The notes under the pieces: generated by a model
Told to the model about the DNA's origin: nothing
The model's database searches: none
Seen by the model: only the letters and a program-made list of their open reading frames with translations
Position numbers and translations under genes: made by a program
Origin: Alkalicella caledoniensis
GTDB lineage: Bacteria > Bacillota > Proteinivoracia > Proteinivoracales > Proteinivoracaceae
Direction: 5' to 3'
DNA: 64,000 bases
NCBI RefSeq assembly: GCF_014467015.1
Contig: NZ_CP058559.1
Coordinates: 1,674,001-1,738,000, forward strand
Shown: positions 22,680-49,122 of the stretch, piece after piece
Numbering within the stretch: the first letter of the stretch is position 1
How the letters are laid out: every line of letters begins with the position of its first letter

Positions 22680-22782
22680 TTTCATACCTCCTTTTCGCCC
22701 ATTTTTAAAACGGACATACTCAGCAAAAACTATCCTCTTTTTAGAGGTAACCTTCTGCCTCATCGCAAGTCACAACATTTCT

Positions 22783-36535: not shown

Positions 36536-36570
36536 ATTGCCACCTCCTTCATAAGTGGGGTATTACAACC

Positions 36571-36603
36571 AAAAAGTGCCCTTTCCGAAGTCAGAAAGGG
36601 CAC
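36571..36603 (-). terminator. Attenuator terminator in the rplJ leader
   Basis: Stem GTGCCCTTTC (36576-36585) pairs with GAAAGGGCAC (36594-36603), followed on the minus strand by TTTTT. It is between the L10-leader aptamer and the rplJ start, and so could set the level of rplJL transcription. Confidence 0.8.
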
Positions 36604-36698
36604 ATATAGTCAAATACGTTTACCTTTCAACCTCGGCAGGATATTAAGCCTTAAAGGCACCTACTGTCTTAAGTTGAATCATATTTAATTTCAACAAC
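36604..36698 (-). ncRNA. L10 ribosomal protein leader
   Basis: The minus-strand leader contains AGACAGTAGGTGCC, then GGCTTAATATCCTGCCGAGG. This is the recognised core of the L10(L12)4-binding leader of Gram-positive rplJL operons, followed by the attenuator hairpin. Binding of the L10-L12 complex is the established control mechanism for this class. Confidence 0.85.
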
Positions 36699-44952: not shown

Positions 44953-45354
44953 TTAGTCTTCCTCCCCTTGTATTATTTCCACAATGCGGCTCATCAATGT
45001 CTCTATTCGCCCAAAATTGTTATTTAAGTAAAGGTAACCCATTACAGCCTCTAACCCTGTAGCATTTTTGTATTCAGCTACTGTAGCACTTTTAGGAAAG
45101 GAATTTCCCTTTACATTCCTTCCCCTTAGTGCAATGTTAAGCTCTATCTCTTCAAGTTCATTTTGAATCCTTAAAAAAGCAATACTTTGAGAGGTTGCTT
45201 TGTTAAATTTTTCAGCTCTTTTATGAAGTAAGTTCGGCTTATATTTACCACTTCTTAATAACATAGATCTAATATATGTGTCATAAACTGAATCCCCTAC
45301 AAAAGCTAGGGCTAGTACAGGGATTTCTTTTTCAAGTTGACTTTTATTCAACAA
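44953..45354 (-). CDS. mrnC: Mini-ribonuclease 3
   Basis: RNase III domain without dsRNA-binding domain; matures 23S rRNA in Firmicutes. 133 aa with the catalytic LALAFVGDSVYDTYIRSMLL and the second acidic region ATGLEAVMGYLYLNN. Start is TTG at 45354. Overlaps cysS by 11 nt, the common arrangement. Confidence 0.93.
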   Translation of the reverse strand: MLNKSQLEKEIPVLALAFVGDSVYDTYIRSMLLRSGKYKPNLLHKRAEKFNKATSQSIAFLRIQNELEEIELNIALRGRNVKGNSFPKSATVAEYKNATGLEAVMGYLYLNNNFGRIETLMSRIVEIIQGEED

Positions 45355-46762
45355 ACTTCCACCTCACCCCGCTGGGCGTATCTTCTAGGATTATTCCTTT
45401 ATCCAGCAACTGATTTCTTATGGCATCAGCTTTTTGAAAATCTCTTTCTTTTCTAGCTAATTGTCTTTCCTCTATTAAACTTTCTATTTCTTCCTCAAGA
45501 TTTTTAGAGTCCTTTTCCTGTATTAGGTCAAAACAAAAATTTAGTGTTTCAAAGGCTGTTTGCATGTGGTTTAGAGTATTAATATTACTTCCCTCTTTTA
45601 AATAAGTATTTACTTCTCTTACCAATTCGAAGAGTATACTTAACCCATCTGCGGTGTTAAAATCGTTATCCATTACTGTATAGTATTTTTCAATCAAACT
45701 GTCAACCCTTTTTACAGTTTCAGTTTCATTTTTAGTTTCTATTTGATTTTGAGATACCATTGCGGAAGATTTAATAGCATGCTGTAAGTTAGTATAGCAC
45801 GTGTTTATCCTTTCCACGCTACGTTCAGCGGATTCTAGTAATTCATCACTGAAATTTATGGGACTTCTGTAATGTGCTGACATAAGGAAAAATCTCAGTG
45901 CTAATGGGGTAAATTTTTTCCTCAAATCCCTTACCATTAAGCTATTTCCTTCTGACTTGCCCATTTTTTTATTTTCAATTTGCAAAAATCCAATGTGTAA
46001 CCAGTACTTAGAAAACGGTTTGTCTGAGAGTCCCTCACTTTGAGCTATCTCGTTTTCATGGTGGGGGAATGCCAGGTCTTCTCCACCTCCATGTATGTCT
46101 ATGGATTCACCTAGGTATCTTCTAGACATAGCGGAGCATTCTATATGCCATCCTGGTCTTCCTTCACCCCATGGGCTATCCCATTTCGGTTCACTGGGCT
46201 TTGCTGCTTTCCAAAGCACAAAATCCAATGGGTTTTTTTTGTTGCGGTCTACTTCTATCCTTGACCCTGATTCCAGTTTTTCTAGGTTTTGGCCAGATAA
46301 TTTTCCGTATCCATAAAATTTCTGTGTGTCAAAAAATACATCTTCACCACCTTGGTATGCTAAGCCTTTTTTGATCAAACCTTGGATTATATCAATGATT
46401 TGTTCGATATTTTCAGTGGCTTTTGGATGTGTGATAGCGTCTTTGATTCTTAAGGATCTTGCATCTTCAAAGTAATTTACTATCATATCCTCTGCAAGTT
46501 CCTTTACGGTAACTCCCATCTCATTTGCTTTTACTATAAGCTTATCGTCTATGTCAGTAAAATTTTGTACGTAGTTTACATCATAGCCCCTTTGTACTAA
46601 ATATTGACGAATAACATCAAACATTAGAAATGTCCGTGCATTTCCAATATGAAAGTAATTATAAACAGTGGGGCCACATACGTACATCCTCACTTTATTC
46701 TCTTCTATGGTCTTGAATTTTTCAAGTTTTTTTTCTAAAGTGTTATAAACTTTCATTTTCAT
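45344..46762 (-). CDS. cysS: Cysteinyl-tRNA synthetase
   Basis: Class I synthetase, 472 aa. HIGH motif FHIGNARTF, zinc ligands around [16 protein letters not shown] and HHENE, KMSKS-like motif KMGKSEGNS. The HIECSAMS zinc Cys and [15 protein letters not shown] are intact. Overlaps cysE by 20 nt; both are behind the T-box. Confidence 0.97.
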
Positions 46763-47402
46763 CTTTTCCTCCTTTTAATACATCAACTTCTTTTTTCAAA
46801 TCCTGTACTTGCCGTTGTAGACATGTGAGCATTACCAAAATGGGGTCCGGCAAATTGTTATGATCTAGTTGCTGGTTAACTTTAACACCATTATTAGCCA
46901 CTATCTTTCCCGGTATACCTACTACAGTTGAGTTAGGTGGCACTTCCTCAAGGACAACTGACCCTGCCCCTATTTTTGAGTTTTCACCCACTGTAAATGG
47001 TCCTAACACCTTTGCCCCAGCTCCAATTATGCAGTTTTCCTGGACAGTAGGGTGACGTTTCCCCTTCTCTTTACCTGTACCGCCCAATGTAACTCCTTGG
47101 TAAATGGTTACAAAATCCCCTACTTCAGCGGTTTCACCTATAACTACACCTGTACCATGATCTATAAATACCCCTTTGCCTATTGTAGCACCAGGATGTA
47201 TTTCTATCCCTGTAACCCATCTAGAAAACTGCGAAATAAATCTCGCCAATGTCACCATTTTCCTTTTGTAAAATTTATTTGCTAGTCTATGGAAAAACAA
47301 AGCATGAAATCCGGGGTAGCAAAGAATTATTTCTATGGTATTTTTTGCAGCTGGATCGCGATCAAATATTGCATTTATGTCTTCTTTCATTTGCCTGAAC
47401 AT
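46743..47402 (-). CDS. cysE: Serine O-acetyltransferase
   Basis: First step of cysteine synthesis (serine plus acetyl-CoA to O-acetylserine). 219 aa with a hexapeptide left-handed beta helix ([40 protein letters not shown]) including the catalytic DHGTG and the His in RHPTV. Preceded by TAGGAGGAATAGG. It is the first gene after the Cys T-box. Confidence 0.95.
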
Positions 47403-47474: not shown

Positions 47475-47629
47475 AAAAAAGCCACCCCTAGGTTATAGAG
47501 GCGACTTTTAATCGCGGTTCCACTCTACTTTAGACATTTATTGTCTATCTTTAGCTAGCCGTTAACGGGGCATATTCGTTTTAGCTCTGGGGTTGCAAAT
47601 CCCTTCATAGCTAATAATCATATTTCTTT
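47475..47629 (-). ncRNA. T-box riboswitch (cysteine), with very short stem I
   Basis: Minus-strand leader of cysE-cysS. The T-box sequence AGAGTGGAACCGCG is at 47513-47526. A terminator follows: AAAGTCGCCTCTA pairs with TAGGGGTGGCTTT (G-U pairs included), then a T run at 47475-47480. Stem III TAGAC/GTCTA precedes the T-box. The stem I candidate is only 34 nt (47581-47614): TTAGCT/AGCTAA outer and GGG/CCC inner, with the Cys codon TGC (47595-47597) in the 8-nt apical loop. TTAGCTA can also pair with a second TAGCTAA at 47551-47557. Cys specificity is supported by the genes. Confidence 0.85.
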
Positions 47630-47635
47630 ATTACT

Positions 47636-47664
47636 ATTTTACCTCTTTGAGAGCATTTTATCAA
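47636..47664 (-). promoter_or_regulatory. Promoter of the T-box/cysE-cysS unit
   Basis: TTGATA (minus strand, 47659-47664) and TAAAAT (47636-47641) with a 17-bp spacer. The gltX stop codon TAA is inside the -10 element. A transcript would start near 47629, only about 15 nt before the stem I candidate. Confidence 0.65.
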
Positions 47665-49084
47665 CTCTTTTTATAACTCTTTCTTTCCCTAAGATAGGAA
47701 TCAAGCTATAAAGCTCTCCACCACTTGTCCTGCCTGTCAGAGCAACTCTAAGGGGCATAAATACTTTTTTTCCACCTAAGTTCAATTCCTTTGTCAAAGA
47801 TTTAAGTATATCTTCTACCTTATTGTAGTTGAGTTCCTCTGCAGCTATGATCTTTTCTTTAAAAAGGTCCATCACTGAATCAACTTCTTCTTGCTTCAAA
47901 ATATCCCTACTTTTTTCGCCATCAAAATCGATATCATCGTGAAAAATGTCAGCTGTGAGTTCAACAATATCCGACAACACTGTCATTTTTTCTCTTACTG
48001 ATTCTACGACATTTTCCAACCAGCTTTCTTCATAGCTGTCGATATCTGTAATGTTATTTCTTAAGAAAGGTTTAACCCTTGTAACTAATTCTTTGATAGG
48101 TAGGTTTTTAATATATACAGAGTTCATCCATTTTAGTTTTTCCATGTTAAATACTGCAGGATTTTTGGAAACACGGTCTAAGGAAAACTCCTTTAACAGC
48201 TCATCAAGGGTAAACAATTCCCTTTCTCCTTCTGGAGCCCAACCTAGTAAAGCCAAAAAGTTTATAAGGGCTTCAGGGAGATATCCTTTATCACGGTATT
48301 GATCGACACTGGTGTCCCCATCTCTTTTACTCATTTTCTTTTTTTGTTCGTTAAGTATTAAAGACACATGAGCAAATTTGGGTTTAGGTTGTTGTAAAGC
48401 ATCGTATATTAGTACCTGTCTAGGAGTGTTAGAAAGATGTTCATCGCCTCTAACCACATCAGTTATGCCCATTGTTATATCATCTATTACAACTGCGAAG
48501 TTATACGTAGGAATTCCATCGGATTTAACTATAACATAATCGCCAATACCATCGCTCTCAAATTTAACTATACCCCTGACTTTATCATCGATGGTTATTA
48601 CCTGGCCTTGTGGCACCTTGAATCTAATAACATATTTCTTTCCTTGCCCTTCAAGTTCTGTAATTTGATCTTCTGTTAGGGAGCGACATTTACCACTATA
48701 CTTAGGGGTTTCTCCCTTAGCCATAGATTCTTGTCTTTGGGCCTCAATTTCTTCTGCTGAACAAAAACATTTGTAACAGTCTTTTTTGTCAAATAATTGG
48801 TCAAGGAAATTTTTATAAATATCTAACCTCTCTGTTTGCCTATATGGTCCGTTTTCTCCACCAACCCTAAGACCTTCTTGCCAATCAAGCCCTAACCACT
48901 GGATACTGTCTAAGATTTCCTCTTCCCAGTGAGCTGACGAACGAGCCAGGTCAGTATCTTCACTGCGAATTAAAAAGGTGCCGCCTGCCTGCCTTGCTAA
49001 CAAATAATCAAACAAAACTGTTCTTGCTCCTCCAATATGTAAAGGCCCAGTGGGACTCGGGGCATATCGTACTTTATAAGTCAT
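47639..49084 (-). CDS. gltX: Glutamyl-tRNA synthetase
   Basis: Class I synthetase, 481 aa from ATG 49084 (MTYKVRYAPSPTGPLHIGGA). HIGH-type motif PLHIGGA, KMSKS-type motif KKKMSKRDGDTSVD and a Cys cluster CYKCFCSAEE ... GKCR. The discriminating or non-discriminating type cannot be told from motifs alone. Own promoter at 49123-49151; the in-frame start five codons upstream is less well spaced. Confidence 0.96.
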   Translation of the reverse strand: MTYKVRYAPSPTGPLHIGGARTVLFDYLLARQAGGTFLIRSEDTDLARSSAHWEEEILDSIQWLGLDWQEGLRVGGENGPYRQTERLDIYKNFLDQLFDKKDCYKCFCSAEEIEAQRQESMAKGETPKYSGKCRSLTEDQITELEGQGKKYVIRFKVPQGQVITIDDKVRGIVKFESDGIGDYVIVKSDGIPTYNFAVVIDDITMGITDVVRGDEHLSNTPRQVLIYDALQQPKPKFAHVSLILNEQKKKMSKRDGDTSVDQYRDKGYLPEALINFLALLGWAPEGERELFTLDELLKEFSLDRVSKNPAVFNMEKLKWMNSVYIKNLPIKELVTRVKPFLRNNITDIDSYEESWLENVVESVREKMTVLSDIVELTADIFHDDIDFDGEKSRDILKQEEVDSVMDLFKEKIIAAEELNYNKVEDILKSLTKELNLGGKKVFMPLRVALTGRTSGGELYSLIPILGKERVIKRVDKMLSKR

Positions 49085-49122
49085 AAAGATAACCTCCATT
49101 TAATATTTATTTGAACCCAAAT

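Follow-up and report, generated by a model that had tools for sequence, protein, structure and literature searches.

Does the leader in front of cysE in Alkalicella caledoniensis represent a complete T-box with a stem I of only 34 nt, or is it the specifier end of a longer T-box that begins within the upstream gene? T-boxes have been divided into four classes, of which class I has a long stem I and a stem II, class II is specific for glycine with a long stem I and no stem II, class III has a short stem I with an apical specifier and requires stem II, and class IV is intermediate (PMC10482949). Their tRNA binding is strengthened by the tip of stem I, by the S-turn of stem II, or by both (PMC10482949), and T-boxes that act on transcription as a rule require the elbow-binding tip (PMC7583486).

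The leader is located on the minus strand of the window, i.e. the complete stretch of 64,000 nt that was analysed (contig NZ_CP058559.1, positions 1,674,001 to 1,738,000), in the gap that separates the stop of gltX (47639) from the start of cysE (47402). The gene order on this strand is ispD-ispF-gltX-leader-cysE-cysS, followed by mrnC, thyX and rlmB, all names being read from the protein sequences. The upstream gene gltX (47639..49099, minus) ends at a putative promoter, the serine acetyltransferase gene cysE (46743..47402, minus) would be the first controlled gene, and the cysteinyl-tRNA synthetase gene cysS (45344..46762, minus) overlaps cysE. Additionally, S10-Clostridia and L10 ribosomal protein leaders were found with Rfam on the minus strand of the window at 22692-22771 and 36561-36691, and three tandem T-boxes (L006, L010, L011) are present within about 1 kb of the A. 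caledoniensis genome (C1:1308332-1309352). In L009, around positions 1700-1830, a T-box sequence with UGGU is followed after about 100 nt by one with UGGC, apparently as a duplicated antiterminator-terminator unit.

Counted up to and including the antiterminator, the leader is about 120 nt long; its elements are given here in the direction of transcription with all coordinates on the minus strand. The ultra-short stem I of 34 nt (47581..47614; UUAGC-UAU-GA-A-GGG-AUUUGCAAC-CCC-A-GA-GCUAA) was assigned by sequence, alignment to the Rfam family RF00230 and covariation. Its foot carries a 3-nt bulge and tandem GA/GA, and by this signature the kink-turn, which is present in T-box stem I (PMC7583486), appears to be kept as at the foot of an ordinary T-box stem I. 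The upper helix consists of just three G-C pairs with the codon loop directly above, and this apical loop of 8-9 nt holds the specifier codon UGC for cysteine (TGC in the DNA, 47595..47597), which is conserved in two related leaders, L022 and L023. Stem II is absent, and the IIA/B pseudoknot (47558..47580; ACG/CGU and GCC/GGC with the F-box CCGUUA) directly follows stem I in the window leader, L022 and L023 (3/3), with both helices invariant among the three. Stem III (47531..47547; UAGACA-AUAAA-UGUCUA) was assigned by folding and covariation, the T-box sequence AGAGTGGAACCGCG (47526-47513) by sequence, and the antiterminator (47496..47527; A1 UAGAG/CUCUA, bulge UGGAACC, A2 GCGA/UCGC) by RF00230 alignment, conservation and match to the tRNA. 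The intrinsic terminator hairpin (47477..47509), found by a terminator pattern scan, competes with the antiterminator for the common strand CGCCUCU, so that the two are mutually exclusive; it is distinct from the cysE ribosome-binding site, which follows farther downstream. Compared with shuffled sequences, the leader has the better fold (z -3.1). An isolated fold of the hairpin of the related leaders did not return the kink-turn form, and the folding model omits non-canonical pairs of this kind. The first-pass annotation had placed the T-box sequence, the terminator, stem III and the 34-nt stem I with TGC in its apical loop, and all were recovered at the positions it had given. To these elements the present analysis adds the features that can be read from the sequence as a retained kink-turn, a missing stem II, the IIA/B pseudoknot and a T-box match to the discriminator base of the tRNA (U73-A).

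In the search with RF00230 at relaxed thresholds, the leader matched over the whole model with 50.3 bits (E 4.6e-10), and the alignment skipped stem II as well as the distal stem I, in line with the short form that had been proposed. The RF00230 model includes the long stem I, and Rfam does not list the leader at the gathering threshold (50.3 bits versus a cut-off of 93); L022 and L023 score 49-50 bits. Rfam's T-box model at its cut-off thus overlooks such short leaders. The Rfam search of five genomes of the family yielded 85 T-boxes, 82 of which span 173-386 nt; the other three span 119-124 nt, all precede cysE, and are the window leader, L022 and L023.

L022 and L023 belong to two species of a sister genus (g2), where they are found in the arrangement gltX-leader-cysE. 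Their stem I reads AAAAAC AGU GA GAGGG AUUUGCAC CCCUU GA GUUUUU, and between UUAGC/GCUAA in the window and AAAAAC/GUUUUU in g2 three of the five aligned foot pairs differ, with both sides changed each time; stem III likewise covaries among the three leaders. When two more distant leaders (L096 and L106, described below) were added, four of the five foot pairs varied on both sides, and the covariation score was reached by none of 500 shuffles, the five-leader alignment having been fitted to the model and the shuffle control ignoring relatedness. The compact, transcription-attenuating cysteine T-box with ultra-short stem I that the first-pass annotation had envisaged in a Firmicute is thereby backed by comparative evidence, i.e. 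the short form in a second genus upstream of cysE with compensatory changes, the covariation and the proportion of 3/85 short T-boxes.

The sequences of L022 and L023 also bear on a switch by alternative pairing of TTAGCTA with a second AGCTAA segment (47557-47551), which had also been put forward. The complementarity is indeed present in the window, but the foot strand of L022 and L023 is AAAAAC and their second segment is GGCTCTAAAG or GGCTTTAAAG, with no GTTTTT partner. Such a switch, not being conserved in these relatives, was dropped as a highly improbable mechanism.

Among 61 genomes searched at the DNA level, only members of the family Proteinivoracaceae contained the leader; the plasmid collection gave no match, and a class search around G228, which covered 20 genomes, was likewise negative. 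A covariance model (R1) was built from the window leader, L022 and L023; the latter two score 147 and 145 bits with this model, which includes them, and the next best sequence scores about 46 bits, so that no further strong member turned up either in the class (13 genomes) or in a sample of 398 genomes of the phylum. With a generic model (R2), only the same three leaders exceeded 55 bits; R2 scores below about 55 bits are uninformative, as many ordinary T-boxes reach 40-54 bits, and none of the further loci fetched with R2 passed a descriptor of the kink-turn hairpin. In a third genus of the same family (g3; two species, L024 and L025), the stem I ahead of cysE is long and carries AGTA, AG and GGUG-type boxes, with an A after the UGC; the gene order in L024 is ispF-leader-cysE. 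Because this form occurs in the same family, the short form probably derived from a full-length T-box through loss of an internal segment that lay between kink-turn and specifier.

The 5′ end of the leader bears on the space available for a long stem I. The string TTGATA-N17-TAAAAT (47636..47664, minus) overlaps the gltX stop codon and has 10/12 matches to the consensus of a sigma-70-type promoter. It is present as the first-pass annotation had reported; as a promoter match taken alone it is no better than chance, with 1 found versus 1.5 expected in shuffled sequence. In L022 and L023 a promoter-like sequence TTGATT-N17-TAAAAT has the same spacing and place, and between its -10 box TAAAAT and the A-rich foot strand stands ATATT in L022 and ATATA in L023. 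Since this -10 box lies so close to the foot strand, a transcription start at the usual distance would fall at the foot itself. Coding constraint at the end of gltX may account for part of the g1/g2 conservation. If the putative promoter is used, this consensus-like element at the gltX stop leaves no space for a long stem I. A full-length T-box would instead require transcription entering from upstream, with the 5′ half of stem I lying within gltX and the short hairpin forming no more than the codon-bearing end of a longer stem. Readthrough is likely as gltX and cysE are close and co-directional, and the promoter match by itself is not significant; against this stand the RF00230 alignment, which sets the stem I foot at 47617 with the distal part deleted, the covariation of UUAGC/GCUAA as a local hairpin, and the -10 boxes of L022 and L023, which end only a few nucleotides before the foot. 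Moreover, AGTA, AG and GNUG boxes were not found in order upstream. No hidden full stem I was thus detected in gltX, and a full-length T-box reaching into this gene is considered very unlikely.

The specificity of the leader was assessed with the tRNA-Cys of the genome, which was located by tRNA family search. It has the anticodon GCA, the anticodon loop CUGCAAA and the end U73-CCA, and both the loop and U73 are common to the tRNA-Cys of 5/5 family genomes. The T-box UGGA is complementary to U73, and the specifier UGC fits the amino acid of the downstream genes cysE-cysS. Beyond the codon, the loop UUUGCA is fully complementary to tRNA-Cys nucleotides 33-38, which might extend the codon-anticodon pairing to as many as six pairs; a simple duplex calculation, which ignores loop geometry, the U-turn and base modification, gave -5.6 kcal/mol for UUUGCA versus -4.0 kcal/mol for the GAAGUGCACC loop. 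The same loop is also complementary to that of tRNA-Ala(UGC), and the leader could accordingly be read as an alanine-specific T-box with GCA, overlapping UGC, as its codon. This reading is barely conceivable given that the tRNA-Ala discriminator is A73 whereas UGGA fits U73 of tRNA-Cys, that the downstream genes are cysE-cysS, and that the long-stem cysE T-boxes of the relatives have UGC as specifier.

On the basis of these sequence comparisons, the leader is probably a transcription-attenuating tRNA-Cys T-box controlling cysE-cysS, whose full-length ancestor lost the distal part of its stem I. In the proposed mechanism, UGC in the apical loop of the kink-turned 34-nt stem I would pair with the GCA anticodon, and the U73-CCA end of an uncharged tRNA would pair with UGGA in the antiterminator bulge. 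With the antiterminator bound, the terminator would not form and cysE-cysS would be transcribed, whereas with charged tRNA, or with none, the terminator would form. Without the elbow-binding tip and the stem II S-turn, binding would proceed via two contacts, the anticodon and the 3′ end, perhaps aided by the IIA/B pseudoknot. Function without both parts is unexpected because, according to the literature cited above, transcriptional T-boxes generally need the tip and class III requires stem II. The loss of both is expected to weaken binding (PMC7583486, PMC10482949), which would agree with a degenerate T-box that has given up tRNA sensing and retains the terminator for constitutive partial attenuation. 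Yet two genera retain the codon, the kink-turn, the pseudoknot, stem III and the T-box, changes in the foot helix compensate each other and UGGA still fits U73, so that decay is regarded as unlikely.

A pattern scan of named genomes recovered at least 119 loci, which among the matches listed were mostly Cys T-boxes with a long stem; an ultra-short stem I was seen among these listed matches in L096 and L106 only. Screening 193 T-box sites, some of them duplicates, with the descriptor of a kink-turn hairpin with a small apical loop returned the window leader, L022, L023, L096, L106 and two evident false matches. L096 (Lachnospiraceae SIG339) has the arrangement ispF-leader-cysE-cysS, and its leader (L096:640-870) combines a kink-turned ultra-short stem I, whose apical loop holds UGC, with a transcription terminator and a stem II that bears an S-turn-like loop. 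L106, from an Oscillospiraceae MAG, is the leader of the glycyl-tRNA synthetase gene glyS (L106:1670-1880); its ultra-short stem I carries GGC in the loop, its stem II is a small hairpin, and it too has a transcription terminator. Both have TTGAC(A/G)-N17-TATTCT immediately upstream. They thus have in common with the window leader the kink-turn hairpin, the apical codon, the terminator and a consensus-like promoter directly upstream, and differ from it by their stem II elements and, in the case of L106, by the Gly codon. L096 and L106, each known from a single genome, suggest that the ultra-short stem I arose repeatedly in Firmicutes. Such forms may have been noticed earlier; TBDB mentions class I matches with truncated stem I (PMC7778990).

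By sequence and specificity the leader classifies as a T-box, and since both the elbow-binding tip and the S-turn clamp appear to be missing, it fits none of the four described classes. Class I has a long stem I with the AGTA, AG and GNUG boxes of the elbow-binding tip, which the window leader lacks, its stem I being 34 nt long. With class III, known from ileS of Nocardia farcinica and Mycobacterium tuberculosis (PMC10482949, PMC7583486), it shares the short kink-turned stem I without a tip, the apical specifier and IIA/B with the F-box; class III has a stem II with S-turn, both absent here, and usually acts on translation through an SD sequestrator, in contrast to the transcription terminator of the window leader. 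The class III ileS leaders are moreover specific for Ile with a loop of 5-6 nt, whereas the window leader is a Firmicute leader with a Cys codon in a loop of 8-9 nt. Class II, represented by B. subtilis glyQS, likewise acts by transcription attenuation without stem II, but it is glycine-specific, has a long stem I with tip and replaces the whole stem II domain by a single-stranded linker, unlike the short stem I and Cys codon found here. The g3 leaders have the gene cysE, the codon, the T-box and the pseudoknot type in common with the window leader and differ by a long stem I (~107 nt, manual count) with AGTA, AG and GNUG-type boxes. These long-stem Cys T-boxes are themselves already without stem II and keep IIA/B.

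It appears evenly balanced whether the leader stands for a further T-box class, i.e. a functional transcriptional T-box without tip or S-turn that would make two contacts, to the anticodon with possibly six pairs and to the 3′ end, from a kink-turned mini stem I beside IIA/B; the exact architecture is carried by three closely related sequences. In the current view, transcriptional T-boxes need the tip for speed, yet the window leader is conserved with covariation without tip or clamp. A functional leader of this kind would amount to a minimal natural T-box and would test how little a tRNA-sensing RNA switch needs, and the Proteinivoracaceae offer, within one bacterial family, long ancestor-like and short forms of the same leader for comparison.
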